This document shows, piece after piece, positions 7,891-27,973 of a stretch of DNA of 48,473 nucleotides. The DNA is taken from positions 1 to 48,473 of the forward strand of contig NZ_QDFI01000030.1 of NCBI RefSeq assembly GCF_003254465.1. The letters are read 5' to 3'. The position numbers and the translations under genes are program-made. Position 1 is the stretch's first letter; the number at the start of each line of letters is the position of its first letter. Source of the stretch: Meridianimarinicoccus zhengii (lineage in GTDB: Bacteria; Pseudomonadota; Alphaproteobacteria; Rhodobacterales; Rhodobacteraceae). The notes beneath the pieces were generated by a model that made no database searches, was not told the origin of the DNA, and saw nothing but the letters and a program-made list of their open reading frames with translations.

Positions 7891-7894
7891 CAGG

Positions 7895-9244: not shown

Positions 9245-10674
9245 CGCCTTGCTTCGCTCGCCGGTGGCGGACAGGGGGCTGGCAGCGACGGGCATCATCA
9301 CCCGCGTGGGCCTGCGGGCCGCATCGGCGCGGGCGCGCGGCCATGCGGTTCGGGGGCAGGCCGGTGCATCGCGCTGCACGCGTTGCCTGCCCGCGACGCG
9401 GCCAGTGCCGCTGCGCCGGGCGATCGTGCGCCGCCGGGTTGCGCGATCACGTGCGGCGACCCGGCGATCTTGGCCTGCGCAATGTAAGCGCCTTCGGCAC
9501 GGTCGTTTTCCTCCCAAGCGGTTTCGCCAGCCTACGTCGTTCCCGGAATTGGCGTCAACGGAGTCGAGATCCGCGGTTCGCGGGACAAGACCCGTCCTTG
9601 GTGCAAGCGCAAGTGCGCCATTGCCGCGAGGCATGGCGCGCCTGTGCACAAACCCGCCGGGGATGGCTGTTTTCGGTCTTGCAACCGGATAGCCGCGTCG
9701 CTGCGCGCCAGCACGGCGCTGCGGTTGTTGCTTGCGCACCCGGCGATGACGCTTGGCGCGCCGCAGCCGGGCCGCGTACACAGTTTGTGATGCATGACCG
9801 GTACATGGGTTTCGACACCAACCGATGTGTTCCGAGGCAAGGGCTGCCTCGATGCGCTTTGGGGCGCGCGACACGGATCTGGCCGCAATCATCGCGCACT
9901 GGCAGCAGGTCGCAAGCCGGGACGTGCTTGCGCTACAGGTCGTGCAGACCCAGTCGGAACGTGGCTCGCGCTCGAAGTGCACCGCGCGTTGCGCGGCATG
10001 ATGCAGGACGGCAACGGCTACTGGCTAGACCGCATGGCGTTCGGCGCCGATTGCATCGGGAAACATGCGAACAAGGCCGCCCGCCACCTGTATCAGATGC
10101 TCGATATCGGGCCGTCCCGCCAGGCCCACCTGCGCCGCATGCCAGTGTGCCGCCCGCGCCGCGCCGTGTTCCAATGTCGGGTGGAAAGGTCCGGCCAATG
10201 CATAGGGCGGAATGGGCAGGGACATGGTCATGACGCTGGATGGCTGCGGCTTTCGTTGCTCCTCAGCGTCGGGGCCAACCATGCCGAAATAAAACCGTGT
10301 GACCCAGATGCCCCGCGGACTGGTATGGAAGAGCTATCCTTGCCATGTGCCAGGCTCGTTCTGAAAGCCGGGGCGCGCAGGTTCATGGCGGTGTCCCGCG
10401 CGCAGCCGGGACCCCGGCTTGCCGATGGCCGCCCGGACAAGCAAGCATCGCGACATGCGGTCGGGGCGCGATCACGGAGCCCCCCTTGGCGACGCGCAAG
10501 GCTGATGCCCCGGTGCAATAAGGCTTCCCTGGCTTCGCTTTGAGGGCAATGCCGTGGTGCTTCCGTCGCAGGCTGTGCTACCTTTGAATTTCACCCACCT
10601 CCAGCGGCAACTGAAAGAAACGGACAGGCACCCTTGGTTTTCTACGCGCGTCCATCCGGCTTGCGTTCCCCACG
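9245..10674. other. 1.4-kb region with no intact gene
   Basis: Between the divergent response-regulator and hybrid-kinase genes no frame gives a convincing full-length protein. The part next to 9245 should carry the promoter of the regulator/kinase pair. A protein-like but frame-broken stretch at about 9852-10190 is listed separately. The part from about 10290 to 10674 shows no gene, and I could not see a strong promoter or hairpin in it. Competing open frames on both strands here have atypical composition (Arg/Cys/Trp-rich) expected of non-coding GC-rich DNA. Confidence 0.5.
9852..10190 (+). pseudogene. possible decayed phasin-like gene, frame-broken
   Basis: An ATG at 9852 opens a frame with natural-looking composition (RDTDLAAIIAHWQQVASRD, then LALQVVQTQSER). 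At about 9960 the natural-looking reading moves to the next frame (TWLALEVHRALRGMMQDG, then NGYWLDRMAFGADCIGKHA); one missing base would join them. The joined protein, helical with WQQ, LQxxQTQ and DGNxYW-like spacing, recalls short phasin-like granule proteins, and reading quality drops again after about 10115. Similarity is by impression only. It could also be chance open frame. Confidence 0.25.
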
Positions 10675-12792
10675 ATGACAGGATGGCGTTCTCGGGCTGG
10701 GCGTAACCTGCTGCGCAAGACCAACGTGCCGGCGCTTCTTGCTTTCCTCGTGGTGGTTGCGGGTTGGATTGCAGCCGAAACCCAGGCACGGAAGAATCAT
10801 GTCGAAGCGCAACGGGCCACGATCGCAAGTCAGGTGGCCCTGCTGCGTGCGGATCTGGAAGGTGCGGTAAACGGACCGATCCAGCTTGTGCGCGGGTTGA
10901 TTGCGGCGATTGCGACCGAGCCGGATATGGACCAGGCGCGCTTTGCGGATTTCGCCAGCAGGCTCATCAACAGCGAGCCATCGCTGCGCAACATCGCCGC
11001 CGCCCCGGACATGGTCATCCGGATGATGTATCCCGTCGAAGGCAACGAGCAGGCCATCGGCCTTGATTACAACAGTATCCCGGAACAGCGCGACGCAGCC
11101 CTGCGCGCGCGTGACCTTGGAAACCTGGTCCTGGCCGGGCCGGTCGACCTGGTCCAGGGCGGCCAGGGCTTCATCGGACGCTTCCCGGTCTTCTTGCAGA
11201 CGGATAGCGCCCGTCCGGTTTTTTGGGGCCTCGTGTCCGCGGTCATGGATCTCGAGGTGTTGTACGCGCAGGCCGGGCTGCACGACGATCTTCCATTTTC
11301 GCTGACGCTCACGGGCCGCGATGCGACCGGCGCGCAAGGGCTCAGGTTTCTCGGGCCCGAGGTCGCGCCGGAAGACATGCCGGTCATCGCCAATGTCCAG
11401 TTGCCTGCGGGAACGTGGCAGATTGCGGCGCTGCCGCATGGCGGCTGGAACACCCAACATCCGCAGATATGGACAATCCGTGCATTGCTGGCGTTGGCTG
11501 CGGCCCTGATCCTCGTGCCCAGCATCGAGATGGGCCGTTCGATGCTGGCCCGCGAACGCGCCATCGCGGAATTGGAAGCCGCGAACACGGCCCTGCATCA
11601 TCAGATGCAGGAGCTTGAAACGGCGCGCGCAGCCCAGGCGGCGGCGGAGGTGCAATTGCGCCAGTCGCAGAAGCTGGAGGCCGTGGGCCAACTGACCGGC
11701 GGCGTGGCCCATGACTTCAACAACCTGCTGACCGTGATCCTCGGCAATGCCGAGATGCTGACCGACGCATTGAGCGACCGGGATCACTTGCGCGGACTTG
11801 CGGAAATGACCGCGGATGCGGCTGAACGCGGGTCCGAACTGACCAGCCGTCTTCTGGCCTTTTCAAGGAAACAGCCCCTGCAGCCCCGCGTGTTGGATGT
11901 CGGCCATCAGATCACCAATGGCCTCGAAATGCTTTTGCGCCGCACCTTGCCCGAGTCCATCACCCTCCAGATCGATCGCGGCGAAGGCCTGTGGCTGGCC
12001 GAGATCGATCCGAGCCAGCTGGAATCGGCACTTCTGAACATCGTGCTCAACGCCCGTGACGCAATGCCGGACGGGGGGGAGATCAGGATCGCGATACGGA
12101 ATGCCGAACTGGATGACGATGTCGTGTCGAACGAGCCCGACTTCGAACCCGGCCAGTACGTCTTGATCTCCGTGACGGATTCCGGCCACGGGATGCCGGA
12201 GGAAACGTTGTCGCGGGTATTCGAACCCTTCTTCACGACCAAGGAAGTCGGAAGCGGCTCCGGCCTTGGGCTGAGCATGGTCTATGGATTTGTGAAGCAG
12301 TCGGGTGGCCATGTCCGCATCCGTTCCGCGCCGGACAAGGGCACGTCGGTGACACTCTACTTTCGGCGGTCGCAGCACGAAGAAGCGGAAAGCGATGTCG
12401 ACGCCAGCCTTCAGCCGATTTCAGGTGGCTTGGAAACGATACTTGTCGTGGAGGACGATGAACAGGTGCGCGAGCATGTCTGTGCCAACCTGCTTGGACT
12501 GGGCTACAAGGTGGTCGAGGCCGAGAACGGTCCGCAGGCAATCGAGATCCTTGAACAGACGCGCGATCTCGACCTGCTCTTCACGGATGTCGTTCTGTCC
12601 GGTGGTATGAACGGACGTGAACTCGCCGATATGGCCAAGGCGTTGCGACCCGGTCTGAAGATATTGTTCACCTCTGGATATGCGGAGGATACCATTGTCC
12701 ATCATGGGCGGCTCGATCCGGACGTGGAACTGCTCAGCAAGCCTTACCGCCGCGCGAAGCTCGCAGAGAAAATTCGCAAGGTGCTGGGGTAA
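10675..12792 (+). CDS. hybrid sensor histidine kinase with CHASE-like domain and C-terminal receiver
   Basis: A 705-residue hybrid kinase. Transmembrane segments at about 17-35 and 268-285 flank a roughly 230-residue extracytoplasmic domain; its [19 protein letters not shown] and [16 protein letters not shown] stretches are typical of CHASE sensor domains. A coiled coil precedes the phosphoacceptor helix ([17 protein letters not shown], His346), then N box ([16 protein letters not shown]), G1 ([11 protein letters not shown]), F box ([20 protein letters not shown]). The C-terminal receiver (about 585-705) contains [11 protein letters not shown], phospho-acceptor Asp in LLFTDVVL, and LSKPYRR. 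No response regulator with an output domain is adjacent, so it probably feeds a phosphorelay encoded elsewhere. The ribosome-binding site before 10675 is weak; the start is the first ATG giving a basic N terminus before TM1. Confidence 0.88.
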
Positions 12793-13027: not shown

Positions 13028-13936
13028 CTATGGTCGGGCCAACAGGCCCCCGAGCAGGCGGTTTCCGAGGGACGGCCTGAAATGGTTCGCATCGATCCAG
13101 TCTTCGGGCGTCGCGCGAGGCGCCTTCAGATCGGTGAAAGACGCATTGCAGCCGGGATTGCGCACGACGAAATCCTCGACGAGGGCAGCCAGAACCGGGG
13201 TCACGCCTGCCAGCGCCGCAGGCAGCTCCGGTTGCGCGGTCTCGACCACCGGGTTCATGGGCGGCTGGAAAAAGACGACGCGCCGACCGGGTTCCGCCGC
13301 GCACCAGGCCCCGAGATCGCCGGACAGGTCGAGAATGTCGTCGGAGCGCTCCCGCAAGACCGAAGGCGGCGGGAGGTTGATCTGGCGCAAAGGGCGATCT
13401 GCGTCCGAAAAAGGACTTGCGCAGGAACCAGCTTCAGGCGCTGACGCGTTCCACGCATCGACCGCGGAAAGTTTCCAGACCGCGAGCCAGACGTCCATGG
13501 CGCGAGGTCCCATGTCGAAGCTGTTCACCCGGGCTTCGCCAAGCGACAGTTCCAGCACGATGGTCTGGACGCTTGGGTTGTCGCGCGCGGCTTTCCCGGC
13601 CCATTGCACGGCATCCTGCATGATCCCGGACGAACGCGAAAAATTGGCAGTGTTCGGCAGGCTGCAGGGGTCGAACCCGTACAGGCTGATGGATGTCCCG
13701 ATGACCCATGTCTCGGCGTCCGACGCCGCTGCAGTATTCGCCAACCAAGTATTTGCGAGCGCCGGATAGCTGTGAAGCACACGCGGAAGACCCTGCGTCG
13801 TTGGAAGCCGATGTCGGCTCTGGTTCAGAACGTCGGCCTGCCGTGTCACGAAGTCCGTGGCGAGAACGCCCAGTAGAAAGATGGCCAGGACCGCGCCCCC
13901 GAACCGGACCGGGCCGAGCGGCTCAGAACGCTGCAT
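13028..13936 (-). CDS. DltD/AlgX-like SGNH-type protein partnered with MBOAT
   Basis: A 302-residue membrane-anchored protein, last gene of the seven-gene operon. One N-terminal membrane segment (about 12-28) is followed by an extracytoplasmic domain. Features of an SGNH-hydrolase fold are visible: a nucleophile-region WVIGTSISLYG (Ser82/Ser84) and a DxxH near the C terminus (Asp282, His285 in IDANHFRP). DltD, AlgJ/AlgX and PatB-like proteins accompany MBOAT transferases and help move the acyl group to its final acceptor; I infer that role here because the gene overlaps the MBOAT gene by 14 nt. Overall sequence is divergent, so the exact family is uncertain, and activity versus pure scaffolding cannot be judged. 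Confidence 0.7.
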   Translation of the reverse strand: MQRSEPLGPVRFGGAVLAIFLLGVLATDFVTRQADVLNQSRHRLPTTQGLPRVLHSYPALANTWLANTAAASDAETWVIGTSISLYGFDPCSLPNTANFSRSSGIMQDAVQWAGKAARDNPSVQTIVLELSLGEARVNSFDMGPRAMDVWLAVWKLSAVDAWNASAPEAGSCASPFSDADRPLRQINLPPPSVLRERSDDILDLSGDLGAWCAAEPGRRVVFFQPPMNPVVETAQPELPAALAGVTPVLAALVEDFVVRNPGCNASFTDLKAPRATPEDWIDANHFRPSLGNRLLGGLLARP

Positions 13937-15422
13937 AGATCACACCGCCGGGGATGGGGGAATCCGAAAGCCAAGCAAGCCACGCGATCAGCCCGAGGAA
14001 CAAGGCCCAGTGTAGAGTTGGCCGGAAGACAGCCCGCCCTTCCGGCTGCGGAAGGAATCCGAACATCCGCGACGTGTTCGGCGCTGCAAAAGCAATGGCA
14101 GCGGCGAGGACAAGGATGGCGGCGACGATCATGTGGTCCGGTGTCGCGGAAAGTGTCGGGCAGGTTTCCATGGTTGGCGCCTGTTCGGTGAAGAACATGG
14201 TAAGGCCGCGCATGTCGGCGAAGCCGGCCAGCACGGTCAGTGCGGATGTCGCGTCGCCGCTCCGGAAGAACACGATTGTCACGGAGGCGAAACCGACGCA
14301 GGTTGCGACGCCGCCCAGACGTGCAAGCCGGCCTGGCGCGCCCGCGCTGTCACGGCCGCGCAGGCGCAGCAAGGCCGCGGCGATCACCGCGCCAGCCGTC
14401 ACGACACTGATCGCGAAGGCCGTCCAGTTCGCGGTGTGCCACAGCATCACCAACACGAATGTCGCGCATACCGAGATGATCCACGCCGCCAAGCGCCGCC
14501 GCACGGCCGACTGGAACGGCAATGCGCGCGACAGCGCCTTCTGCACGTGCACGAAGAAATAGTCCCGCGCAAAGAGCATAAAGGACATGTGCCAGCGCAT
14601 GACGTAGTCGCCCAGACGGTGCGCCTTGAGCGGGCTGTCGAAATTCGGCGACAGCCGCAGGCCGAAGAACAGGGCAAGTCCGATGGCGATATCCGAATAG
14701 CCGGAAAAGTTGTAGTAGAGTTCCAGCAGGAAGCCGAAACTTGCAACGACAGCTTCGGGCAGGCAGGCGGCGGTGCCGTCCGCCGCCGCGGCATAGATCG
14801 GTACCGTAAGCGCGCTGATCTGCCCTGCGAAGAACCGCAGCTTGAAGGCGCCGATGATGACGAGCGCAAGCGCAGCCATCAGGCACCCGGTATCGATCTT
14901 CTGGCGCGACAGCGCGGCGAGTTGCGGCTGGAGCCCGCGATACGGCGTGATCGGACCGGCGGGAAGATGCGCGAAGAAGGTCGAGAAAAGAAGATACTGT
15001 GGCAGCGGCGCGTCCGGTGTTCGGCCCTCGTGCCGGTCGATCAGATAGGTGATCTGCTTGAACGCATAGAAGGACAGCCCAAGCGGCATGCCGGCGACCA
15101 GAAAGAGCGAGCCGGTATCGGACAACGTGACGGGATTGATCTTGAACCACGCGACGCTTGCGATGTTCGCGGCGATGCCCAAGGCCAGGATGGCCGTCCG
15201 TTCGCGGGGGTACGCGGCCATCGCGCTGGCGCAGGCGCGGTTTACGCAGATGCTGACAACGATCACGGCAAGGCTCAGGGCCGAGGTCGCGGCCAGGAAA
15301 GCCAGGGACATCCCCACAAGGAACGGCACGCTCCAGCCCGGCGCAAACCGCCGCAGCAGGAAGAAGCCTGCAAGCGATGCGGGCATGAAGCCGAACAGGA
15401 ACGGCGCCGACAGAAACACCAT
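13923..15422 (-). CDS. MBOAT-family O-acyltransferase (AlgI/DltB-like)
   Basis: A 499-residue polytopic membrane protein with about eleven hydrophobic segments. AlgI/DltB-type signatures: GLSFYAFKQITYLID (about 115-129), FAHLPAGPITPY (150-161), ELYYNFSGYSDIAIGLA (234-250), NFDSPLKAHRLGDYVMRWH (260-278) and the catalytic-site LWHTANW with His329. Such enzymes pass an acyl group from a cytoplasmic donor across or at the membrane to an extracytoplasmic hydroxyl. The usual donor for DltB is a carrier protein, and an acyl carrier protein is encoded two genes upstream. It starts 15 nt after the carbamoyltransferase stop. Acceptor unknown: a polysaccharide, lipid or protein are all possible. Confidence 0.88.
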   Translation of the reverse strand: MVFLSAPFLFGFMPASLAGFFLLRRFAPGWSVPFLVGMSLAFLAATSALSLAVIVVSICVNRACASAMAAYPRERTAILALGIAANIASVAWFKINPVTLSDTGSLFLVAGMPLGLSFYAFKQITYLIDRHEGRTPDAPLPQYLLFSTFFAHLPAGPITPYRGLQPQLAALSRQKIDTGCLMAALALVIIGAFKLRFFAGQISALTVPIYAAAADGTAACLPEAVVASFGFLLELYYNFSGYSDIAIGLALFFGLRLSPNFDSPLKAHRLGDYVMRWHMSFMLFARDYFFVHVQKALSRALPFQSAVRRRLAAWIISVCATFVLVMLWHTANWTAFAISVVTAGAVIAAALLRLRGRDSAGAPGRLARLGGVATCVGFASVTIVFFRSGDATSALTVLAGFADMRGLTMFFTEQAPTMETCPTLSATPDHMIVAAILVLAAAIAFAAPNTSRMFGFLPQPEGRAVFRPTLHWALFLGLIAWLAWLSDSPIPGGVIYAAF

Positions 15423-15437
15423 GCGATCCGGTTCCCG

Positions 15438-17132
15438 TCAGGCCGCGGCGCCGGGTTTCTCGACCAGCATGTCCTCGACGAGAATGGCATCGAGCCCACT
15501 GGTCATCAGCATCGCGACCGCGTCCTCGACGCTGTGGACGATCGGCTTTCCCATGATGTTGAAACTGGTGTTCAGCACCACCGGAATGCCGCACAGATCT
15601 TCGCAGGCATCCAGAAGATCTACCATCCATGACGCGGTGTCCCGTTTGACGGTCTGCAACCGCCCTGTACCGTCCGCATGCACCGTGGCCGGGACCATGT
15701 CCCGGCGGGACGCATGCCATGGCAGTGTCACGGACATGTAGGGCGACGGTTGCGCGCATTCGAACCACGCCGACGTATCCGCGAGCCGCACGACGGGTGC
15801 GAAGGGCCGGTACGCTTCCCGGCCCTTTACCTCGGCATTGAGACGATCCTTCATGCCGCTTACCTGCGGCGCCGCAAGGATGGACCGGTTGCCGAGCGCG
15901 CGGGGCCCGAATTCGGCCCGCCCGCGCATGACGCCGACGATCCGGCCCTGCACGAGGCAGTCCGCCACGGCGCGCGCGGATCCATCGCCCATGTCACGGA
16001 CCGCAAGCCCGCGGGCCGAAACGCGAAGCTTGTCGAGCATTCGGATGGCCACCGTACTACCCAGATAAGGTGAGCCGTCCCCGCGCGGGACGGCATCGCA
16101 ACCCTTCGTTCGCATATAGGCCAGCAGCGCGGCGCCGATGGCGTTCCCGTCATCGGCCGGGCATGGCGGAACATGCAGGGCGGGCAGGGCGAAACGGTCG
16201 CGTATCGTTCCGTTATGGGACGAATTCAGCGCACATCCCCCCGACAGGATCAGTGGAAGCCGCTCGTCCCCGTCAAGACAATCGGCGATGACCTGATCCG
16301 CAAGTGCTGCATACACGGCCTGTCCGGTTGCAGCGAGATCGGCCGCGGCCTCGACCGGGTCGGCGGGTCTGCGGACATGGGGCTGGCACCTGTCCGTCGC
16401 CCTGCGCAAGGTCTCCGGGTCGGCAAACCGCAACCGTCCGCGATCCACGGCGACCATGCCGCGCATGACCTCCGCAAGCTCCGGAATGACTTGTCCGAAG
16501 GCGGCAAGCCCCATGACTTTCCATTCCTCGCCCTTGCGCCAATCGAAGCCGCACAACCCCGTCAGCCAGCCATAGAAGGTCCCGAGACTGCCCGGGCCCC
16601 AGGACCGGAAGCGGCGCGTCAGGCGCCGCGCGCGCATGTCGAAGACGCTCAGCGCGCCGACCTCTCCCTCGCCGTCGAGCACAATGCACACGGCATCATC
16701 CACGGGGGCGAACCATGCGGCGGCGACCGCGTGGCACAGGTGATGGTCGAAGCGCATCGGGTCCGGCGGCGCGTCGGCAAGGCCCAGCCGGAGCAGGGAG
16801 CGCCCCGCGGTCGCATGGAGCTGTCCCTGCAGTCCCTGCATCCAGAGCGTGTCGCGCGCCGGGAGTAATGCATCCTGCGGCGCCTTGCCCAGTTCGGCCT
16901 TCACGCCCGCCCAGCTTGTCCCGACTGCAAGCGTATCGCGGGCCGCATCGAACCCCACCTGCGCCAGCGCGGACTCGAGATGCGGCACGTGGTCGGGTGC
17001 GATACCCCAGGCACGCTTGTCCTGCACGAACCGCTCGGTCGCCTCTGCGAAGCGCACGGCACCGTTGTCGTCGACGATTGCCAGCGCCGGATCGTGGCCC
17101 GAGGTCGAAACGCCGAGATGGAAAGCTGTCAT
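15438..17132 (-). CDS. NodU/TobZ/CmcH-family O-carbamoyltransferase
   Basis: A 564-residue carbamoyltransferase. The N-terminal Kae1-like domain starts with an ASKHA phosphate motif (HLGVSTSGHDPALAIV) and contains the metal-binding DHHLCH (Asp129, His130, His134), GEWxV-like GEEWKVMGLA (201-210) and LSGGCALNS. The C-terminal YrdC-like/NodU domain has the conserved FGPRALGNRSI (408-418), EAYRPFAP and VVLNTSFN (518-525). These enzymes form carbamoyl-adenylate from carbamoyl phosphate and ATP and place the carbamoyl group on a hydroxyl of a small molecule. Here the hydroxyl could come from the P450 protein. Its ATG overlaps the ACP stop by 4 nt (ATGA). All key residues appear present. Confidence 0.9.
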   Translation of the reverse strand: MTAFHLGVSTSGHDPALAIVDDNGAVRFAEATERFVQDKRAWGIAPDHVPHLESALAQVGFDAARDTLAVGTSWAGVKAELGKAPQDALLPARDTLWMQGLQGQLHATAGRSLLRLGLADAPPDPMRFDHHLCHAVAAAWFAPVDDAVCIVLDGEGEVGALSVFDMRARRLTRRFRSWGPGSLGTFYGWLTGLCGFDWRKGEEWKVMGLAAFGQVIPELAEVMRGMVAVDRGRLRFADPETLRRATDRCQPHVRRPADPVEAAADLAATGQAVYAALADQVIADCLDGDERLPLILSGGCALNSSHNGTIRDRFALPALHVPPCPADDGNAIGAALLAYMRTKGCDAVPRGDGSPYLGSTVAIRMLDKLRVSARGLAVRDMGDGSARAVADCLVQGRIVGVMRGRAEFGPRALGNRSILAAPQVSGMKDRLNAEVKGREAYRPFAPVVRLADTSAWFECAQPSPYMSVTLPWHASRRDMVPATVHADGTGRLQTVKRDTASWMVDLLDACEDLCGIPVVLNTSFNIMGKPIVHSVEDAVAMLMTSGLDAILVEDMLVEKPGAAA

Positions 17133-17386
17133 CCGTCGGCCAGCCGCAGCACGACATCGTCCACGAAACTCCCGACGGTGTCGTGTTCGAAGATGGTGCT
17201 GGGATCGAGCTCGACCCGGAAGCGATCCTCGACCTCTCCGCACATGATGACAGCATCGATGGACTGCAGGCCAAGCCCGATCAGGTCCGATCCCGGTTCG
17301 ATCCGTTCCGCTGGCAGCTTCACATGGCGCGAAATCTGGGTGCGGACGAACTCCATCACGGATGCGCGAAGGTCGGTGTCGGTCAT
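17129..17386 (-). CDS. stand-alone acyl carrier protein
   Basis: An 85-residue acidic, helical carrier protein. The phosphopantetheine attachment site is LGLQSIDAV with Ser42, in the expected place at the start of helix 2, preceded by SDLIGLGL. The sequence begins MTDTDLRASVMEFV. It is unlike housekeeping AcpP (no DSLD) and closer to carriers of secondary-metabolite and Dlt-type systems. It is joined by ATGA overlaps to the P450 gene before it and the carbamoyltransferase gene after it, so the three should be made in step. I infer that it holds the acyl chain activated by the neighbouring FAAL while tailoring enzymes act. Confidence 0.88.
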   Translation of the reverse strand: MTDTDLRASVMEFVRTQISRHVKLPAERIEPGSDLIGLGLQSIDAVIMCGEVEDRFRVELDPSTIFEHDTVGSFVDDVVLRLADG

Positions 17387-19575
17387 GCCTTTTCCTTGTC
17401 TTGTTCTTGTGGGGGCCGGACGCAGGGCAGCTTCGACAGGGCAACAGTCTGCGTCATGTCCTGGTATTCGTGGGCCTGCGGTTTCAGGTGCAGATCCGGA
17501 AAGCGCGCAAACAGTGCCGGTACCGCGGTGCGGAGCATCATGCGCGACAGCCCGGAGCCGACGCAATGATGCAGGCCGTGACCGAAAGCCAGATGCCCGG
17601 CGCCAATGCCCCGGTTGATCGACAAGAGCTGAAGGCGCGCGGTATCGCCCACACGCAGGTCGAGCCCACCCAAGCGAACCGGTTGTCGCACCATCCGGTA
17701 GATGTACTTGGGCGACCCGCACAGCGATATGAGCCGCTCCATGTGCTGCGCGATCCAGTCCGGATCGGCGGCTCCGATGCGATCCTCGGGCGGCCGGGTC
17801 AGAATCCAGTGCAGGACATTGCCGAGCGTATGCGAAAGATTGAAGCTCGCCCCGTAGAGGACAAGCACCAGGGCCTTCATGTCGTCGCGCGTGAAATCCT
17901 CCAGCCTTGTGGCCATGAGCGCCCCGAGAACGGATACCGGCGCGCCGTCCTGCGGGGCCGGCGGTATCCGCATCAGCGCCAGAAGCTCGGCGAACACCTC
18001 TTGCAGGCGAAGAAGCTCGCGCATCGGCAGCCAGGGTTCCAGCACGTCCTGAAGGATCGGCGCCAACTGGTCGAAGCGGTCGGGCGCGTCGGTGTTCACG
18101 CCCAGTATGGGCCCGGTGATGCCACGAAACAGCGGATCGGCGAAATCATGGATCAGGTCGGGCCGCGCCGCGGCGGCAAGGCCGTCAAGCGCCCGCTGCA
18201 CCTGCGTATCGACCAGGCCCTGCCAAACCGGCAGCCTGTTCCCGCCGAGGCAGCCGGCCACGACCTTGCGGACATCGGCATGGCGCTTGCCGCTCATGAA
18301 AAACATCGCGTTGCGGGCGATCAGGATGGCCGGCGACAGGTCCGTGCCGCTTCGCGCCGCGAGCGCGCGCAGATGCGGCTCCATGGCGGGGGGCATGAAC
18401 CTGTCGTTGTCGGATACGATGGCGCGCGCGGATGGAAGATCCTTCACCTCCGCCAGCCGGGCGCTCAGTCTCCGGGACTGGCCGGTGGTGTCGCATGGCA
18501 TCGTGACGGGAAACTGCACCATGGCGGTCGTCCGGAACCGCACCTTGTCCTTGTGCAGCGCCATGTTCGGAAAGCGCCGCGCAAGCGCGGGCACGGCAAG
18601 GGCCAGCAGCCGCCGCGACACCGCTTCGCCGGGGCATTTATGCGCGCCCGCGCCGAAGGACAGGCTGCGCGCCTTGCCCGCCGCGTCGGTCCGGTCGCGC
18701 AACCGCGAGTTGGTGGCGGGAACGTCGATCACCGTCGCTTGCCCCCGTGCGAAGGGACAGCCGCCGATGACCACATCCCGCGAAGCCATGCGCACCAGCG
18801 TCAGGGTCGACGGATAAAGGCTCAGGAATCGTTCGAGGTGCCGTGCCGCCCAACCCGGTGTCGCCGCGTCGTGCCAGTGCCGTGCATCCTCCATCAGCAG
18901 GCCGTGGAGCACGAAGCCAAGGGTCTGCGCGGCGGTCGATGCGGCGACGGTCAGCGCCATGGCCGTATAGCGCAACTCCACGCTCGCGGGCGCCCTGTCC
19001 CGATTGCGGTGGAGATAGCTCGACAAGCTCTCGGGTGTTGCGGGCGGGATGCCGTCTTCCGGGGGCAACCGGGCGTCGAGATACTGCACGGCGCTGTTCA
19101 GGTCCCGCAGGTCGCGCAGCGACAGCATCGGTTCGGTGATGCGCTGCACGGTCGCGATCATGCGATGCATCTGTCCCGATCCGTCGTCGCGCAGCCCCAC
19201 CATGGGGCAGATCACCGACAGGAAAAGCGGTGTCACGAAATCATCGATCAGGTCGGGCCGGGGCGCGGTTGCCAGCCGGTCGAGCGCGGCGTCGATAGCC
19301 GTCTCGAACCGCGGTTCCCAGCGCGCCATCGCGCGGTCGCTGAAGAACGGCGCGATGAGCCTGCGGGTTTCCAGATGCTCGCGCGCGGGCTGCGAAATCA
19401 GGGCATTCCGCGCAAGACGGCGAAGTGCGCCGAAGTCTTCGCCGCTTGCCGCTTCCAGTCGTGCCACGTAGTCCTGAAGCGGCGCGACCTCCATGGCCGG
19501 ACAACGCAGAAGCGCTTCGACCTGCGCGGGATCGCTTTCGAAGAGCGACCGGTCGTCCCAGATGTCATGCCTCAT
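17383..19575 (-). CDS. protein with two tandem cytochrome P450 domains
   Basis: A 730-residue protein made of two P450 domains (about 1-365 and 375-725). Each keeps the heme-ligand motif: FGAGAHKCPG with Cys314 and FGHGLHHCVG with Cys671. Each is compact and lacks much of the normal region between the K helix and heme loop. The K-helix ExxR is absent in both: the aligned places read RFLS (in HLERFLSLYPS) and RLIS (in HMERLISLCGS). In the I helix domain 1 keeps a Thr (AASTAAQTLG) but not the preceding acid; domain 2 has neither (GASFNLSHTLG). No reductase or ferredoxin is adjacent. Shared peculiarities suggest internal duplication. Probable role: oxidation of an ACP-bound acyl chain (inference). 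ATG at 19575 overlaps the FAAL end by 11 nt; an in-frame GTG at 19629 is less likely. Confidence 0.85.
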   Translation of the reverse strand: MRHDIWDDRSLFESDPAQVEALLRCPAMEVAPLQDYVARLEAASGEDFGALRRLARNALISQPAREHLETRRLIAPFFSDRAMARWEPRFETAIDAALDRLATAPRPDLIDDFVTPLFLSVICPMVGLRDDGSGQMHRMIATVQRITEPMLSLRDLRDLNSAVQYLDARLPPEDGIPPATPESLSSYLHRNRDRAPASVELRYTAMALTVAASTAAQTLGFVLHGLLMEDARHWHDAATPGWAARHLERFLSLYPSTLTLVRMASRDVVIGGCPFARGQATVIDVPATNSRLRDRTDAAGKARSLSFGAGAHKCPGEAVSRRLLALAVPALARRFPNMALHKDKVRFRTTAMVQFPVTMPCDTTGQSRRLSARLAEVKDLPSARAIVSDNDRFMPPAMEPHLRALAARSGTDLSPAILIARNAMFFMSGKRHADVRKVVAGCLGGNRLPVWQGLVDTQVQRALDGLAAAARPDLIHDFADPLFRGITGPILGVNTDAPDRFDQLAPILQDVLEPWLPMRELLRLQEVFAELLALMRIPPAPQDGAPVSVLGALMATRLEDFTRDDMKALVLVLYGASFNLSHTLGNVLHWILTRPPEDRIGAADPDWIAQHMERLISLCGSPKYIYRMVRQPVRLGGLDLRVGDTARLQLLSINRGIGAGHLAFGHGLHHCVGSGLSRMMLRTAVPALFARFPDLHLKPQAHEYQDMTQTVALSKLPCVRPPQEQDKEKA

Positions 19576-21265
19576 GGGGCTGCCTGGTCCGCGTCTGTTC
19601 CGCAACGTCCACGCCGACCTGTCCCGCACGATAGGCTTCGGCCATGGCTTGGCGGCGGACCTTGCCGCTGCTGGTCCGGAGCAGCCGTCCGCGTGGCAGA
19701 ATTCGAAGATCCTTCAGATGGATGCCCCATTCGCCCGCGATGACCTTCGCGATGCTGCTGCGCACCGTTTCCAGCGGACCCGCGGTCGTGGCGTACCCCG
19801 ACTTCAATTCGATCAGCAGAACCGCGCGTGCGCTTTCGGTCGCATCGGGCATGAAGGCCGCCGCAGCCAGGGGATTGAGCGCGTCATCCATGCTGGCGGC
19901 CAGCCATTCCAGTTCCGCAGCCGCGACCTTGCGCCCGTTCGCGATCAGCGTGTCCTTGATCCGCCCCGTCACATGCAGAAGCTCGCCGGTAATCACACCC
20001 AGATCGCCGGTGCGCAGCCATTCTCCCGCAACCGCGTCCGGCGTTTCCAGTGTCGCGTGAAAAGTCTGCCGAGTCTCCTCGGGGAGGTTCATGTAGCCAT
20101 CTCCCTTCGAAGGGCCGCGCAGCCAGATTTCGCCCTCCCGGCCTTCGGGGCATGGCATGCGGGACTGCGGGTCGACGATGCGCAGGCGTGGGGCCGTAAG
20201 CGTGTTCAACCGGCAGGGTTCCACCGGGGTGCCGCCGAGCGAGGCAGCCGGTCCGGGCGCACCTGCGGCGAACAAGGTCATCTCCGCCATGCCATAGCAG
20301 CCGAATACCCCCTCCGGCGGCAATCCATGGGCCGCGAACCGCGCGCGGAAGGCCGGCAGCAATCCCGCTGGTATGGGTTCGGCACCGCAGAAAGCGCGCG
20401 TCCAGCACGAAAGGTCCAGCCCCGCGCAGTCCCCGGGCGCGATCCGGCGCAGGCACTCGGCAAAGGCGAAGGCGGGTCCCCCGCTGAAATCGGCGCGGTG
20501 ATCGGAAATCGCGCGCAGCCAGTCAACCGGGCGGCGCACCATGTCGAGAGGGTTCATCTGCACCGACCTGCCGCCTGCCAGCAGCGGGTACAGGATGCCG
20601 CCCATCAGCCCCATGTCGTGATAGTGCGGCAGCCAGTTCACCATGCACGTTTCTGGCCCCATGCCCCAGCTTTCTTCCACCATGCGGCAGTTCGCAAGGA
20701 TGCTGGCACCGGAAATCCGCACGCCTTTCGGCAGGCGCGTGGAGCCGGAGGTATACTGGACCACGACCGGGTGCGGACCCTCTGCGCACGGTCCGATCCG
20801 TTGCGGACGCTGCTGCATGTGCGTGCCATACTCGGCGGCGTCGATGGCCACCACCGGGCAGGAGGGGCCATGCGTTGCGTTCCTCAAGCCCTCGCGGATC
20901 GACGGCAGCTGCGCCCCGGTGCACAGCACCGCATCGGCGCCGCAATCGGTGACGATATGGGCAAGCCTGCTGGCAACCGATCCAAGGCGCGGCAGCGCGG
21001 CCGGCACCATCGTGTGCCCGCCGAGAATTCCCGCCAGCAGGGCCGCGAGGAACCACTCGCCCGGCGGCAGCGCCAGCACGAGGCGTAGCGGACCGGCGCC
21101 GAACTGGCTATCCCAACGGACCCGGAGCGCATCGGCGCGCTGTTGCAGGTCGTGGCCGGTCAGCACCAGCGGCGGCGACGCGCGGCGCAGCACGGTGATC
21201 TGCGGCACGCCCCTGCGTTCGGCGAGCCGCATCTCGATCGCGCGCGCAAGAGGATCCGCGCTCAT
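19565..21265 (-). CDS. fatty-acyl-AMP ligase (FAAL)
   Basis: A 566-residue member of the ANL adenylating superfamily. Motifs: P-loop YTSGSTRLPKGV (171-182), the FAAL-characteristic WLPHYHDMGLMGG (211-223), YGMAE (324-328), WLRTGDLG (416-423), hinge GRIKDTLIANGRKV (434-447) and the C-terminal catalytic Lys535 in TSSGKVRR. WLPHYHDMGL is typical of FAALs, which make acyl-adenylates and load carrier proteins rather than CoA. The gene sits two positions before the ACP and overlaps the radical SAM stop by 4 nt, so it most likely charges that ACP with a free fatty acid. Chain length cannot be predicted by eye. Confidence 0.9.
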   Translation of the reverse strand: MSADPLARAIEMRLAERRGVPQITVLRRASPPLVLTGHDLQQRADALRVRWDSQFGAGPLRLVLALPPGEWFLAALLAGILGGHTMVPAALPRLGSVASRLAHIVTDCGADAVLCTGAQLPSIREGLRNATHGPSCPVVAIDAAEYGTHMQQRPQRIGPCAEGPHPVVVQYTSGSTRLPKGVRISGASILANCRMVEESWGMGPETCMVNWLPHYHDMGLMGGILYPLLAGGRSVQMNPLDMVRRPVDWLRAISDHRADFSGGPAFAFAECLRRIAPGDCAGLDLSCWTRAFCGAEPIPAGLLPAFRARFAAHGLPPEGVFGCYGMAEMTLFAAGAPGPAASLGGTPVEPCRLNTLTAPRLRIVDPQSRMPCPEGREGEIWLRGPSKGDGYMNLPEETRQTFHATLETPDAVAGEWLRTGDLGVITGELLHVTGRIKDTLIANGRKVAAAELEWLAASMDDALNPLAAAAFMPDATESARAVLLIELKSGYATTAGPLETVRSSIAKVIAGEWGIHLKDLRILPRGRLLRTSSGKVRRQAMAEAYRAGQVGVDVAEQTRTRQPHEA

Positions 21266-22791
21266 GATGCCACGGCGCTCATGCGGGGCAGGTCCGCCTT
21301 TCGGGGCTGCCGGGCATAGCTGTTGAGATACAAACCAAGCGCCTGCATCAGGTCCCCGCGCAGGGTCGGGCGCGTCGCCGCAAGATCGCGGACACAGTCG
21401 ATCACCCGCCTCGCGGCCGGGTCGCGTGCCATGACGGAAAACAGTTCCATGAACGGGTGCGACCGTGCCGCGGGGTCGCGCCGGTCCGGCTGTGTCAGGT
21501 GCTCTGGCATGTCACCCAGAAGCTGCGCATAGCGTTCGAACCGCCCGATTGCGTTGCCGGGGTCGAGAAGCGCATGCCGCAGCCATTCCGCGCCTTCGCC
21601 AAGTTGTTCGCGGCTCATCTGCGCCGGCTGGATGTTCGTCAGCGAACTGCCGCTCGTGACCGGAACCAGCGAGGGTTCCTCGACGATCCGCCCCGCAGCG
21701 CGCATCTGATCGTAAAGCGGCGTTGCGATCGGCGCGACGAGAACCGAAAGCCGATAGACGACGATCGGCAAGGCCATCGCAAAGTCGAACTGGCGCTCGA
21801 AACAGGACAGGTCGTCGCTGTCGAAGCCGATCATGAGACCCGCCTGCAACGAGACACCCGCGCGAACGACCTTTTCGCATTGCTCCACAAGGTCGATGCG
21901 CATGTTCTGCCGCTTGCGGCTCTCCTTCAGCGCCTCGATATTGCTCGTTTCCAGCCCGACGAAACCGAAGCGCAGCCCGGCGCGATTGCAGGCAGCCAGC
22001 AGTTCCGGGTGCCGCGCGACGTCGATCGACATCTGCGTCATGAAGCTGACCGGATCGCGGCCGTCCGCCCCGTTCCATGCTGCAAGTGCCTCAAGCAGGA
22101 CGAGTGTCCGCTGGCGATAGACGGTGAAGTTGTCGTCCGACAGGTTGATCTGGCGGTACCCGAGATCGTAGAGCGCCTGAACCTCGTGGATGACAAGTTC
22201 CGGCGGTTTGTGGCGCTGCACACGGCCGAGATACTGGATGACGTCGCAGAAATTGCAATCGAACGGGCAACCGCGGCTTGTCTGGACAACACCGGCAAGG
22301 GCCAGCTCGTTCGGATAGAGATCCCAACGCGGCATGCGCGCGTTGCCCAGATCCGCCTTTCCGCCCTGATAGCGCCGTTTCAACGTTCCGTCTGCGATAT
22401 CCGCCACGACATCGTCGGCGATCTGTTCGAATTCACCGAGAACCAGACAGTCCGCAACTCCCTCGAAGATGTCCGGTGCGAGCGACACATGCGCGCCGCC
22501 AAGGATCACGGTGCGGCCCATCGCGCGAAACCTGCGCGCGATGATGGCTGCCCCGGCTGCCTGCGCGATATTGACGCTGATCGCGATGACCTCGGCCGGG
22601 TCGTCGTAGTCGACCGGTTCGACGATCTCGTCGCACAGGCGCAATTCGAAGTCATCGGGAAAGAAAGCCGCGACCGTGGCGATACCGGCCGCGGCATTCA
22701 TGGCGTAAGGACGCGAAAATCCGACGGCGCAATCGTCGTTCAGGACATTTCGGCCAAAGTCTGGGGCAGGAGCTATGAGATAGACGCGCAT
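21262..22791 (-). CDS. B12-binding-type radical SAM protein (DUF4070-like)
   Basis: A 509-residue radical SAM enzyme. The N-terminal Rossmann-like domain (about 1-140) is of the cobalamin-binding type (VILGGAHVSLAP, DCLVLGEFE) but has no DxHxxG, as in many B12 radical SAM proteins that bind cobalamin base-off without a His ligand. The radical SAM core carries SRGCPFDCNFCD with Cys175, Cys179 and Cys182, then LSDDNFTV and FVGLETSN. The C-terminal region resembles DUF4070 proteins. Members methylate or rearrange unactivated carbons in lipids and natural products. First gene of the operon; ATG at 22791 gives the usual MRVYLIAPAP start. Its 4-nt overlap with the FAAL gene argues that it acts in the same pathway. 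Confidence 0.85.
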   Translation of the reverse strand: MRVYLIAPAPDFGRNVLNDDCAVGFSRPYAMNAAAGIATVAAFFPDDFELRLCDEIVEPVDYDDPAEVIAISVNIAQAAGAAIIARRFRAMGRTVILGGAHVSLAPDIFEGVADCLVLGEFEQIADDVVADIADGTLKRRYQGGKADLGNARMPRWDLYPNELALAGVVQTSRGCPFDCNFCDVIQYLGRVQRHKPPELVIHEVQALYDLGYRQINLSDDNFTVYRQRTLVLLEALAAWNGADGRDPVSFMTQMSIDVARHPELLAACNRAGLRFGFVGLETSNIEALKESRKRQNMRIDLVEQCEKVVRAGVSLQAGLMIGFDSDDLSCFERQFDFAMALPIVVYRLSVLVAPIATPLYDQMRAAGRIVEEPSLVPVTSGSSLTNIQPAQMSREQLGEGAEWLRHALLDPGNAIGRFERYAQLLGDMPEHLTQPDRRDPAARSHPFMELFSVMARDPAARRVIDCVRDLAATRPTLRGDLMQALGLYLNSYARQPRKADLPRMSAVAS

Positions 22792-23441: not shown

Positions 23442-24386
23442 ATGAAGAAATACATGCTTGGCGCAGCTTTCGCTGCGCTTGCGACGGGTGCGACCGCGCA
23501 GACGATCGGCTTTTCGCAGATCGGCTCCGAGTCCGGCTGGCGCGCGGCGGAAACGACCGTGACCCGCCAGGAAGCCGAGGCGCGGGGCATCGACCTGCGA
23601 TTCTCGGATGCGCAGCAACGGCAGGAAAACCAGATCGCCGCGATCCGGTCCTTCGTCGCCCAGGGCGTCGATGCGATCCTGCTCGCGCCCGTCGTCGCGA
23701 CCGGCTGGGACAGTGTTCTGGAAGAAGCCAAGGAGGCCGATATCCCGGTTGTCCTGCTCGACCGCCGGGTCGACAGTTCCGACGATCTTTATCTGACTGC
23801 TGTCGGTTCCGACCTCGTTCACGAGGGCGCGGTGGCTGGTCAGTGGTTGGTGGACAACAAGCCCGAGGGCGAATGCCGCGTCGTGGAACTGCAGGGCACC
23901 ACGGGATCGTCGCCCGCCATCGACCGTGCGACCGGCTTCCGCAACGCGATCGAGGGCAATGACGAGATCGAGATCGTGCGCAGCCAGACCGGCGACTTCA
24001 CCCGCTCCGGCGGGAAGGAAGTCATGGAAAGCTTCCTGCAGGCCGAAGGCGGCGGCGGGAACATCTGCGCGCTCTACGCCCATAACGACGACATGGCGCT
24101 TGGCGCTATCCAGGCGATCAAGGAAGCCGGGATCGATCCGGGCGACGACATACTGATCGTGTCCATCGACGCGGTGCCGGACATCTTCCGCGCCATGGCC
24201 GACGGCGACGCCAATGCCACCGTTGAGCTGACGCCGAACATGGCCGGCCCGGCCTTCGACGCTCTGGACGCCTATTGGCAGGACGGCACCGTTCCGCCGA
24301 AATTCATTCAGACGGAATCGGCGCTCTATACTCAGGACGACGATCCGATGGCGCAGTACGAGAACCGCAAGGACCTCGGCTACTGA
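23442..24386 (+). CDS. ytfQ: YtfQ-like galactofuranose/sugar-binding periplasmic protein
   Basis: A 314-residue periplasmic binding protein of the LacI/RbsB type. A signal peptide (MKKYMLGAAFAALATGATAQ) is followed by mature TIGFSQIGSESGWRAAETTV, which closely matches E. coli YtfQ. Other shared stretches are SFVAQGVDAILLAPVVATGW, VVELQGTTGSSPAIDR, SQTGDFTRSGGKEVMESF, YAHNDDMALGAIQAIKEAG and VELTPNMAGPAFDAL. YtfQ binds furanose forms of galactose in E. coli; relatives bind other furanoses such as arabinofuranose or fructofuranose, so the precise sugar is open. A strong ribosome-binding site (GGGAGGAAAC) at 23431-23440 fixes the start. First gene of the operon. Confidence 0.9.
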   Translation: MKKYMLGAAFAALATGATAQTIGFSQIGSESGWRAAETTVTRQEAEARGIDLRFSDAQQRQENQIAAIRSFVAQGVDAILLAPVVATGWDSVLEEAKEADIPVVLLDRRVDSSDDLYLTAVGSDLVHEGAVAGQWLVDNKPEGECRVVELQGTTGSSPAIDRATGFRNAIEGNDEIEIVRSQTGDFTRSGGKEVMESFLQAEGGGGNICALYAHNDDMALGAIQAIKEAGIDPGDDILIVSIDAVPDIFRAMADGDANATVELTPNMAGPAFDALDAYWQDGTVPPKFIQTESALYTQDDDPMAQYENRKDLGY

Positions 24387-24411
24387 CGCAAACGCGGTTG
24401 AAGATCGGTCG

Positions 24412-24430
24412 GGGCCCGTTCGCGGGGCCC
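24412..24430 (+). terminator. stem-loop between ytfQ and ytfR
   Basis: GGGCCC / GGGCCC around a 7-nt loop (GTTCGCG) in the 97-nt gap after ytfQ. No T-run follows. Likely a partial terminator or 3' stabiliser that raises binding-protein expression over the membrane components. Confidence 0.4.
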
Positions 24431-24483
24431 TGGCGCGGCGGTCCTGCGGGCACGTCGCGCCGATCCGCGCGGGAGGGCGCAAG

Positions 24484-25982
<1,499 letters not shown>

Positions 25983-25986
<4 letters not shown>

Positions 25987-27005
25987 GCCCGGGCCTGCGC
26001 CGTCTTGCGCCGCAACTGCTGACGCTGGCCGCCGTGATCGCTCTGGTCTCGGTGTTCTTTCCCGGCTTTCTTGCCGTGGAGCTGTCGGACGGCCGGTTTG
26101 TCGGCAGCGCCGTGGACGTTCTGAAACGCGGCGCCCCCGTGGCGGTGCTGGCCGTCGGCATGACGCTTGTGATCGCCACGCGCGGCATCGACCTGAGCGT
26201 CGGGGCGGTGATGGCCATCTGCGGCGCAGCCTCAGCCTGGGCCATCTCCAACGATTACGGGCTTGCGGCGGCGCTGGCCGTGGGGCTTGGCGCCGGGCTT
26301 CTGTGCGGGCTTTGGAATGGCGTACTGGTCGCGCTTTTCGGCATACAACCCATCGTCGCCACGCTGATCCTGATGGTGGCGGGGCGGGGCATCGCGCAGA
26401 TGATCACCGAGGGGCGCATCCTGACCTTCAGCCATGACGGGCTTGCGTTCTTCGGCACGGGCGATGTGCTGGGCATCCCGACGCCGATCCTGATCTGGGT
26501 CGGCACCGGGCTCGCGTTCGGGCTGCTGGTACGCCGCACCGCGCTTGGGCTTCTGATCGAGGCGATCGGCATCAACCGGCCCGCAAGCGCGCTGGCGGGC
26601 GTGAACGCGCATGTCCTGCTGATCGCCGTCTATGTCGCCTCCGGACTGTGCGCGGCCATCGCGGGGATCATCGTCGCTGCCGATATCCGCGGCGCGGACG
26701 CGAACAATGCCGGGCTCTGGCTCGAGCTTGACGCGATCCTTGCGGTCGTGATCGGCGGCACATCGCTGCTGGGCGGGCGGTTTTCCATCGCCGCGTCGCT
26801 GCTTGGCGCCTTCATCATCCAGACCATCGACACCGGCATCCTGCTTGCCGGATTCCCGTCCGAATTCAATCTCGTGATCAAGGCCGGGCTGGTCGTCATT
26901 ATTCTCGTGCTGCAATCACCGCGGCTGAAACCGCAACTGTCGTTCCTGTTCCGGCGCGATCGCGGGGCGGATGCGGCCACCCGAGCCGAAGAGGCCGCAG
27001 AATGA
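25983..27005 (+). CDS. ytfT: YtfT-like sugar ABC transporter permease
   Basis: A 340-residue permease of the RbsC family with eight to ten membrane segments. Characteristic stretches: VAVLAVGMTLVIATRGIDLSVGAVMAI (about 58-84), NGVLVALFGIQPIVATLILM, and the cytoplasmic loop with IEAIGINRPASALAGVN near residue 200 for ATPase contact. It forms one half of the membrane pore with YjfF. Overlaps of 4 nt at both ends tie it to ytfR and yjfF, so the two permeases should be made at a fixed ratio. Length matches E. coli YtfT. Confidence 0.9.
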
Positions 27006-27973
27006 ACGCGCGTGTCCTGCCGCTCTATGCGACCATCGCGATCTTCCTGGTCGCCTACCTGATCTGCTACCTGCAGTTTCCGGCGATGCTGTCGACGCGG
27101 GTGATCGCCAACCTTTTGACCGACAACGCCTATCTCGGAATCGTCGCGGTCGGCATGACCGTCGTGATCATATCGGGCGGGATCGACCTGTCCGTGGGGT
27201 CGGTTATCGCCTTCTCTGGCGTCTTCATCGCGGTGTTGCTGCGCGATACCGGGCTGCACCCGCTGATCGTCTTTGCGCTGCTCCTGTCGGTGACCACGGC
27301 GTTCGGGGCTGCCATGGGCGGTCTGATCCACGGGCTTGCGATGCCGCCGTTCATCGTCACGCTGGCGGGCATGTTCCTTGCGCGCGGGGCGGCCTACATG
27401 CTGACCATCGACAGCGTGCCGATTACCCATCCTTTCTACGACATGCTTCAGGACGCGTATTACCGGATGCCCGGTGGGGGGCGGCTCAGACTCATCGGGG
27501 TGCTGATGCTGCTGACGGTCGGTGCGGGCATGATCCTTGCCCATCGCACCCGTTTCGGCACCGCCGTCTTCGCGCTTGGCGGCGGTTCGCAGACCGCCCG
27601 GCTGATGGGAGCGGACGTGGGACGGACGACCGTGCTGATCTACGCCTTTTCGGGCTTCATGGCCGGGCTGTCGGGCATCGTCTTCTCGATCTACACCGGG
27701 TCGGGTTATCCGCTTGCGACCGTGGGGACCGAATTGATCGCGATCGCCACCGTGGTCATCGGCGGGACGATCCTGACAGGAGGTTCCGGCTACGTGTTCG
27801 GCACCCTGATCGGCGTGCTCACGATGGGCCTGATCCAGACTTACATCGTCTTCGACGGTACGCTTTCGAGCTGGTGGACCAAGATCGTCATCGGATTGCT
27901 TTTGCTTCTCTTCATTTTGCTTCAAAAGGGGCTCTTGATCCTGGGTCAGAGACAACGCAGAAGCACGGCCTGA
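27002..27973 (+). CDS. yjfF: YjfF-like sugar ABC transporter permease
   Basis: A 323-residue second permease, starting MNARVLPLYATIAIFLVAYL. RbsC-family features: VAVGMTVVIISGGIDLSVGSVIAFSG (about 48-73), HGLAMPPFIVTLAGMFLARG, and FALGGGSQTARLMG as the coupling loop near 195. The PFIVTLAGMF and GSGYPLATVGTELIAIATVVIGG stretches match YjfF rather than YtfT. A heterodimeric pore is expected. The regulator gene follows after only 1 nt, so it is on the same transcript. Confidence 0.9.
   Translation: MNARVLPLYATIAIFLVAYLICYLQFPAMLSTRVIANLLTDNAYLGIVAVGMTVVIISGGIDLSVGSVIAFSGVFIAVLLRDTGLHPLIVFALLLSVTTAFGAAMGGLIHGLAMPPFIVTLAGMFLARGAAYMLTIDSVPITHPFYDMLQDAYYRMPGGGRLRLIGVLMLLTVGAGMILAHRTRFGTAVFALGGGSQTARLMGADVGRTTVLIYAFSGFMAGLSGIVFSIYTGSGYPLATVGTELIAIATVVIGGTILTGGSGYVFGTLIGVLTMGLIQTYIVFDGTLSSWWTKIVIGLLLLLFILLQKGLLILGQRQRRSTA

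Follow-up and report, generated by a model that had tools for sequence, protein, structure and literature searches.

Among the closest described counterparts of the operon considered here is the DltABCDX system, in which an adenylating enzyme, a free carrier protein, a DltB-like membrane-bound O-acyltransferase (MBOAT), and an SGNH protein act together, and the carrier-bound acyl group is moved outward via a tyrosine shuttle. These elements recur in seven tightly packed minus-strand open reading frames (ORFs) at positions 13028-22791 of a 48,473-nt stretch of Meridianimarinicoccus zhengii DNA (hereafter, the window). In contrast to Dlt, this operon has a fatty acyl-AMP ligase (FAAL) rather than DltA, tailoring enzymes in between, a shuttle-like tyrosine on the MBOAT itself, Gram-negative hosts, and a replaceable exit. 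Because the activating enzyme is of the FAAL type (best FAAL model in NCBIfam 301 bits, compared to 62 bits for the DltA models), the operon appears to work like Dlt but is not Dlt.

Individual components have further counterparts. PatA/PatB and other MBOAT-SGNH pairs likewise combine an MBOAT carrying its own C-terminal tyrosine motif with an SGNH partner (excerpts of PMC12148441); however, PatA uses acetyl-coenzyme A (CoA), whereas a dedicated acyl-acyl carrier protein (acyl-ACP) is the likely donor here. Among solved structures, P450 BioI, determined in complex with acyl-ACP, matches the P450-like protein best by both profile and fold, although by a narrow margin; BioI is a single domain with an ExxR motif, whereas the operon encodes two fused halves without ExxR. 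With NodU, TobZ, and GdmN, the operon shares a carbamoyltransferase with both domains and the conserved motifs, here encoded next to the ACP in an operon with a FAAL. In FAAL-initiated lipopeptide and polyketide clusters a FAAL charges a stand-alone ACP, as predicted here, but no polyketide synthase or nonribosomal peptide synthetase gene is present in the operon. Finally, profile comparison relates the C-domain of one alternative exit to the LpxL/HtrB lipid A acyltransferases, although in this exit the domain lies behind TPR repeats. Literature searches aimed at the gene set, with most subscription journals outside their coverage, found no description of it among the papers listed, and the terms carbamoyl, MBOAT, P450, DltB, and radical SAM did not occur when the FAAL review PMC11837247 was searched for them. 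One paper that these searches returned deals with laxaphycin peptides, and no carbamoyltransferase is assigned to the cluster (excerpts of PMC8471579).

Comparison of the M. zhengii operon with its relatives suggests a carrier-bound acyl-cargo pathway composed of a tailoring core and an exchangeable exit, a reading that is considered moderately probable as a whole.

Conserved core and exchangeable exits

A total of 26 core loci were identified in 25 genomes, all from Alphaproteobacteria, comprising 24 loci from a profile scan of an 84,980-species collection, the window, and one further locus (L004 in genome G187). The scan required one of two short exact peptide patterns, and more distant relatives may escape it; L011-L014, which represent the same places as L029, L030, L048, and L042, were counted once. 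Hosts of the 24 scan loci are Rhodobacterales, Stappia, Roseibium, Breoghania, Aurantimonas, Methylorubrum, Rhizobium, and Brevundimonas. In taxonomic samples, the double P450 was found in two genomes among the 294 others of the family, where the G212 copy (L005) is partial and broken and does not count toward the 26 loci. It was found in 5 of 389 other genomes of the order (G187 being common to the family and order samples) and, in full form, in none of 397 other genomes of the phylum, where one genome has a single-domain cousin.

The genes for the double P450, ACP, and carbamoyltransferase are adjacent at all 26 loci, including L040, L043, and L047, where copies are broken or the first P450 half has diverged. 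This constant association argues that their adjacency is not due to chance. A FAAL gene is present at 24 of the 26 cores, a radical SAM gene is located near 18 (contig piece L077 included), and an MBOAT-SGNH pair accompanies only seven. An earlier reading of the window made from its sequence alone (the sequence-only reading) had proposed a seven-gene unit, to be doubted if the genes were scattered and not co-inherited in related genomes. The core is co-inherited throughout, and the seven genes do form one compact operon in M. zhengii; however, they do not constitute a fixed set, as all seven classes share a neighborhood only in the window, L049, L037, and L044 (4/26 loci). Given its restriction to seven cores, the MBOAT-SGNH pair was rejected as an essential part of the system.

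Three types of exit were distinguished across the 26 cores: the MBOAT-SGNH pair (seven loci), a TPR protein with an LpxL-like C-domain (12 loci, one of them weak), and a thioesterase-like protein with a cysteine nucleophile (seven loci). The MBOAT type comprises the window, L035, L037, L039, L042, L044, and L049. In nine LpxL-type loci the exit gene is nearby (L004, L032, L033, L034, L036, L038, L046, L047, and L048), and in the two Rhodovulum loci (L029 and L030) the LpxL-like protein is encoded 15-17 kb away on the same contig. The remaining locus, L040, has a broken LpxL-profile match on another contig (2e-38) and a weaker thioesterase match (4e-27), neither adjacent to the core, and was tentatively counted as LpxL type because the other Breoghania locus (L036) is of that type. 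In profile comparison, the C-domain of the TPR protein was related to LpxL with 95.3% probability (E = 2e-8), with nine other profiles, two of them from the MBOAT family, reaching at most 0.33%. Among the eight aligned domains (from the nine nearby copies, excluding the split L038 copy), two reach Pfam PF03279, with a best E-value of 0.1, and a PDB profile search with the domain gave no credible match.

The thioesterase type includes L027, L028, L031, L041, L045, L026, and L043, and a GGNCQG motif is present in all five of the seven sequences that were aligned. In L026, the thioesterase-like gene is located on a separate contig piece (L077), where the radical SAM gene comes next and then the beginning of the FAAL gene, and in L043 (Methylorubrum) the thioesterase-like protein is fused to a carrier domain in a gene adjoining the radical SAM gene (L078). 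Five candidates for core loci without an exit (L026, L029, L030, L040, and L043) were rejected, since their exit was located elsewhere in the genome, weakly so for L040.

Genome-wide, the three exits largely exclude one another. None of the seven MBOAT-type genomes has an LpxL-like exit and none has a thioesterase-like exit; the LpxL-like exit is absent from all six thioesterase-type genomes (leaving out Rhodobacter sp. NTK016B, with two cores and both exits), and the thioesterase exit is absent from 9 of 11 LpxL-type genomes. The two cores of Rhodobacter sp. NTK016B, L027 and L032, thus differ in their exits, and the former lacks an adjacent FAAL gene. Outside the 26 loci, the core was also observed on two plasmids: unnamed5 of Phaeobacter sp. 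G2 (L081, thioesterase type), a strain from an Emiliania huxleyi culture, and pSC52_1 (L082, MBOAT type), where the core adjoins an IS21 transposase gene.

Exit switching and mosaic ancestry

The exit has switched repeatedly on the conserved core. In a tree of the FAAL, P450, and ACP proteins from 25 of the 26 loci (L040 was left out of all trees), the exit labels need eight changes, compared to a minimum possible of two, and the starred branches alone force at least four per label. Eight changes are also needed in the tree of all four core proteins, and seven, three of them for the MBOAT, in the carbamoyltransferase tree. The labels are more clustered than shuffled ones, with values as low found in 2, 2, and 0 of 200 shuffles for the three trees.

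The window operon itself is most simply explained as a recombinant with a break near the ACP/carbamoyltransferase border, because the ancestries on the two sides conflict. In the FAAL/P450/ACP tree the window is sister to Xinfangfangia, which is of the thioesterase type, whereas in the carbamoyltransferase tree it joins Roseovarius and M. roseus, which are of the MBOAT type, each with support of 100/100. Approximately unbiased (AU) tests, for which the groups were chosen after the trees were seen, reject forcing the other grouping both ways (p = 8.7e-5; 1.5e-53 and 3.3e-5). The boundary between the two ancestries would fall approximately at positions 17129-17132.

Enzymes of the core

The ORF calls, with gene starts from our own simple ORF caller, agree with the sequence-only reading on seven minus-strand genes joined by overlaps of 4, 11, 4, 4, and 14 nt and one 15-nt gap. 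The enzyme classes it had proposed were also borne out, with Pfam and NCBIfam assigning families to six of the seven proteins and a predicted SGNH fold for the DltD-like seventh. All features located below are on the minus strand.

The FAAL-type adenylating enzyme (19565-21265) matches PF00501 (7e-44), and FAAL models rank best in NCBIfam, yet below their cut-offs. In EcFAAL, the bulky residues that block CoA are W224, M231, and F279, and the proline of the WLP motif is P226 (excerpts of PMC8460268). The window enzyme has W211, M218, and F266 at the EcFAAL spacing, kept in 24/24, 23/24, and 24/24 sequences, respectively, and the WLP proline, the C-terminal lysine, and the P-loop TSGS are each present in 24/24, with the P-loop lysine found in 22 and replaced by arginine in two. 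By alignment alone, the FAAL-specific helix region aligns ungapped to 7r7f. The stand-alone ACP (17129-17386) matches PF00550 (6e-12) and has its phosphopantetheine site at Ser42 (codon 17261-17263), a serine in 24/24 sequences. Among NCBIfam models it best matches the N-terminal carrier region of Pks13 (4e-9), with which the FAAL FadD32 is partnered.

The NodU/TobZ/GdmN-type O-carbamoyltransferase (15438-17132) has both domains (PF16861 and PF02543, 1e-61 and 2e-21). The three histidines of HHxxH are kept in 26/26 sequences, the L040 fragment counted, and GPR[AS]LG..RS in 25/25, the L040 fragment lacking that region; residues of both motifs have catalytic roles. The B12-binding-type radical SAM protein (21262-22791), a putative accessory enzyme, matches PF04055 (5e-14), with a sub-threshold match to the B12-binding domain (23.2 bits vs. 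the Pfam threshold of 32.1), and CxxxCxxC is present in 16/16 copies compared, leaving out the L040 fragment. The window copy is 74% identical to that of Xinfangfangia and 69-71% identical to those of Aurantimonas and Methylorubrum.

The tandem two-domain P450-like protein (17383-19575) is a P450 by fold and heme ligand, but an odd one. It matches PF00067 (2e-10), NCBIfam P450 models match both halves, and its predicted model is of high quality (predicted local distance difference test [pLDDT] 89.2, predicted template modeling score 0.89). Over the first half, BioI has the highest profile score (125.1 bits, followed by another P450 at 122.8 bits), and 12 of the 15 leading Foldseek rows are BioI chains, from three entries, the third row being another P450 (3.2e-14 vs. 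2.2e-14). The heme-thiolate cysteine of FxxGxxxCxG, represented in the window by Cys314 (codon 18634-18636) and Cys671 (codon 17563-17565), is kept in 24/24 readable first halves and 26/26 second halves. The P450 alignment took 23 of 26 copies, with L040 (frameshifted) as well as L043 and L047 (first half truncated or diverged in the calls) left out.

Relatives of this protein were also observed in other settings. At L015:7120-9805 (G418, Pararhodobacter marinus), a separate ACP, an alpha/beta-hydrolase-like protein (a sequence reading), and a single-domain cousin of the P450 halves make up a further small assembly. At L083:465-6037 (G679, which belongs to a different family within the phylum), one P450-like ORF, seemingly without ExxR, adjoins a canonical-looking P450 and a radical-SAM-like gene (also sequence readings) together with a TPR protein with an LpxL-like C-domain (2.3e-20), and the pairing of P450-like and TPR-LpxL proteins may therefore be wider than this operon.

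MBOAT and SGNH proteins of the window operon

The DltB-like MBOAT (13923-15422), the first part of the exit module, matches Pfam MBOAT (8e-7) and, below its cut-off, the DltB model (8e-33); its profile finds DltB alone in the PDB at E ≤ 0.1 (1.5e-26). The candidate catalytic histidines H278 and H329, as well as Y496 and F499, are invariant in all seven MBOAT-type loci. The C terminus of the window protein reads VIYAAF (13926-13943) and contains Tyr496, and the other six end in VIYENF, VIYEGF, IIYEGF, and, in three cases, FIYAQF, so that IYxxF is common to 7/7. According to excerpts of PMC12148441, the acyl-shuttle tyrosine of PatA sits in a C-terminal FXYXXF, which is FIYANF in Neisseria gonorrhoeae PatA, and this motif of PatA and DltX was the basis of the comparison. 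There is no room for a separate DltX between the seven genes, the ORF search covering lengths of 60 aa and above.

The second part of the module is a DltD/PatB-like SGNH protein with an N-terminal helix (13028-13936). It has no Pfam match even at E ≤ 10, and a PDB profile search with it gave no credible match. Fold comparison of its predicted model, of modest quality (pLDDT 71), matched SGNH/GDSL esterases first (11 rows at E ≤ 0.001, template modeling scores of 0.36-0.45 by query length), with the OatA catalytic domain at row 17. The candidate nucleophile Ser82 (codon 13691-13693) and the candidate DxxH of the triad, from Asp282 to His285 (13082-13093), are invariant in 7/7. Together, the C-terminal tyrosine motif of the MBOAT and the invariant Ser/Asp/His of its partner support transfer by acyl-Tyr and acyl-Ser steps. 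The Dlt-like logic of the exit put forward by the sequence-only reading, with DltB as the sole solved relative of the MBOAT, is thus well supported as a predicted mode of working. At two loci, L049 (17145-19581) and L082 (16146-18582), the first pair is directly followed by a second MBOAT gene and then another SGNH-like gene, the latter two bearing this annotation in L082.

Proposed pathway and alternative explanations

In the proposed pathway, the FAAL would form the AMP ester of a carboxylic acid, the likeliest candidate being a fatty acid, and load the acyl group onto the ACP, consistent with its family and conserved residues. The tandem P450-like protein would act on the carrier-bound chain, probably supplying or exposing a hydroxyl, and the NodU/TobZ-type enzyme would carbamoylate a hydroxyl. 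Where present, the radical SAM enzyme might modify the group further, for instance by C-methylation or ring closure. As suggested by their sequence features, and by analogy with Dlt and PatAB, the C-terminal tyrosine of the DltB-like MBOAT would then receive the acyl group from the ACP, and the SGNH partner would pass it on, as a serine ester, to an acceptor in the periplasm. In relatives, this role would fall to an LpxL/HtrB-like acyltransferase joined to TPR repeats or to the thioesterase-like enzyme with its cysteine nucleophile. The cargo would thus be a tailored, probably carbamoylated, acyl group, and the order of hydroxylation, carbamoylation, and export is plausible.

Several observations count against this reconstruction, and the first set concerns the P450. 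ExxR is missing from its expected place in all 24 first and all 26 second halves, the first half is eight residues shorter in the meander than BioI, and the operon has no redox partner gene, which together make the oxidation step uncertain; for want of ExxR, it is not certain that the halves are oxidases. In addition, BioI scores only slightly better than other P450s, and the match is a lead toward an ACP-bound substrate rather than proof of one. Alternatively, the double P450 could be a degenerate P450 that serves as a scaffold for the ACP or as an activator of the carbamoyltransferase, in the manner of DesVIII-type proteins, which are P450-like activators of glycosyltransferases, with the hydroxyl coming from the substrate, e.g., a 3-hydroxy acid. 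Besides the lack of ExxR and the short meander, this explanation is favored by the best NCBIfam match, TIGR04515, a P450-derived glycosyltransferase activator, although its 83.6 bits are far below the cut-off of 343. P450-derived activators are known to lose the heme cysteine, however, and here it is kept in both halves. CYP157 P450s also lack ExxR, according to a title in the reference list of PMC3990721. A scaffold role, compatible with the rest of the proposed pathway, is therefore regarded as somewhat unlikely.

The loading and carbamoylation steps of the proposed pathway face points of their own. Between two blocks aligned to solved FAALs, the FAAL has a stretch of 20 residues compared to 41 in 7r7f, and the FAAL-specific insertion presumably lies in this stretch, shorter by about 20 residues; the enzyme may have CoA activity. 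Two loci (L027 and L040) have no adjacent FAAL, and the carbamoyl acceptor may be the target rather than the acyl chain.

For the exit of the window operon, VIYAAF deviates from a strict FXYXXF, with the first position being V, I, or F among the seven proteins. A broad-family MBOAT also stands without a core in G581, from the genus of the window (L022:8337-9902; 30-33% identity, profile 6e-88), with no core gene or SGNH-profile match in the surrounding 19.9 kb, and broad-family MBOATs occur away from the cores in MBOAT-type genomes as well. The G581 case fits the explanation that the MBOAT and its SGNH partner O-acetylate an envelope polymer and were simply added to the operon, as do the commonness of MBOAT/SGNH acetylation pairs, the absence of the pair from 19 of 26 cores, and the second pairs in L049 and L082. 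Yet the pair is found in the same place and direction behind the carbamoyltransferase in 7/7 loci, including Brevundimonas with its distant copy (32-34% identity), and it is replaced one for one by the other exits. The MBOAT profile matches DltB, which uses a carrier protein, and no acetyl-CoA-dependent MBOAT in the PDB, where few such structures may exist. A mere O-acetylation pair is thus very unlikely.

Regarding the alternative exits of the proposed pathway, the LpxL-like domain keeps the histidine of HX4D/E, the motif of LpxL-type acyltransferases, and its acidic residue in none of eight sequences. Exclusivity is also incomplete: distant thioesterase-profile matches were found in two LpxL-type genomes (G418 and G592), among 14 genomes not of the MBOAT type, the MBOAT profile has a partial match in one (Methylorubrum, at a distance from the core), and the window MBOAT matches one of four further genomes (G187, 29% identity, away from the core). 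Moreover, the thioesterase-like exit might release a free product.

This last point leads to the explanation that the operon makes a free small molecule (a signal, an antibiotic, or another lipid), with the exits serving as alternative release or capping steps and the MBOAT-SGNH pair acylating a small acceptor destined for export and not a polymer of the cell surface. The thioesterase-like exit at 7 of 26 cores, the lack of glycan genes among 10 scanned neighboring genes of the window, and the two plasmid-borne copies agree with it. Conversely, LpxL-like and MBOAT/SGNH proteins belong to established families that normally acylate lipids or envelope polymers, and the nucleophile of the thioesterase-like exit is a cysteine, in our view associated with transfer as much as with hydrolysis. 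In Rhodovulum kholense (L075:277-13799), the TPR-LpxL gene is located among glycosyltransferase, methyltransferase, GDP-mannose-dehydratase-like, epimerase, and GHMP kinase genes, a sugar-gene neighborhood that hints at a glycan acceptor. A free small-molecule product is accordingly considered distinctly unlikely.

Genomic context of the operon

Ten window genes flanking the operon and further out were scanned, and all have ordinary functions in transport, sensing, and regulation, or encode a symporter and ATP synthase. Positions 23442-28727 and 5941-12792 contain genes for a sugar-type ABC transporter and its accompanying GntR/FCD regulator, along with three two-component signaling genes, none of which is an obvious partner. 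Promoter and terminator counts did not stand out from the noise of shuffled sequences.

Implications

Taken at its fullest, the reconstruction tentatively describes a novel kind of pathway, which is possible rather than likely, in which a fixed cytoplasmic core builds an unusual carbamoylated acyl group on its own carrier, a two-heme P450 works without ExxR, and plug-in exits are swapped by recombination: the MBOAT-SGNH pair leading to the outside, the TPR-LpxL type to a lipid, and the cysteine thioesterase type as a third. The operon and its relatives point to a so far undescribed class of decorated acyl groups in Alphaproteobacteria. One core with three natural exits offers a direct handle on what decides the destination of an acyl group, and the tandem P450 without ExxR would test what ExxR is needed for. 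In its MBOAT/SGNH form, the system would add tailored acyl cargo in Gram-negative bacteria to the D-alanine and acetyl groups already known to travel by the Dlt/PatAB shuttle.

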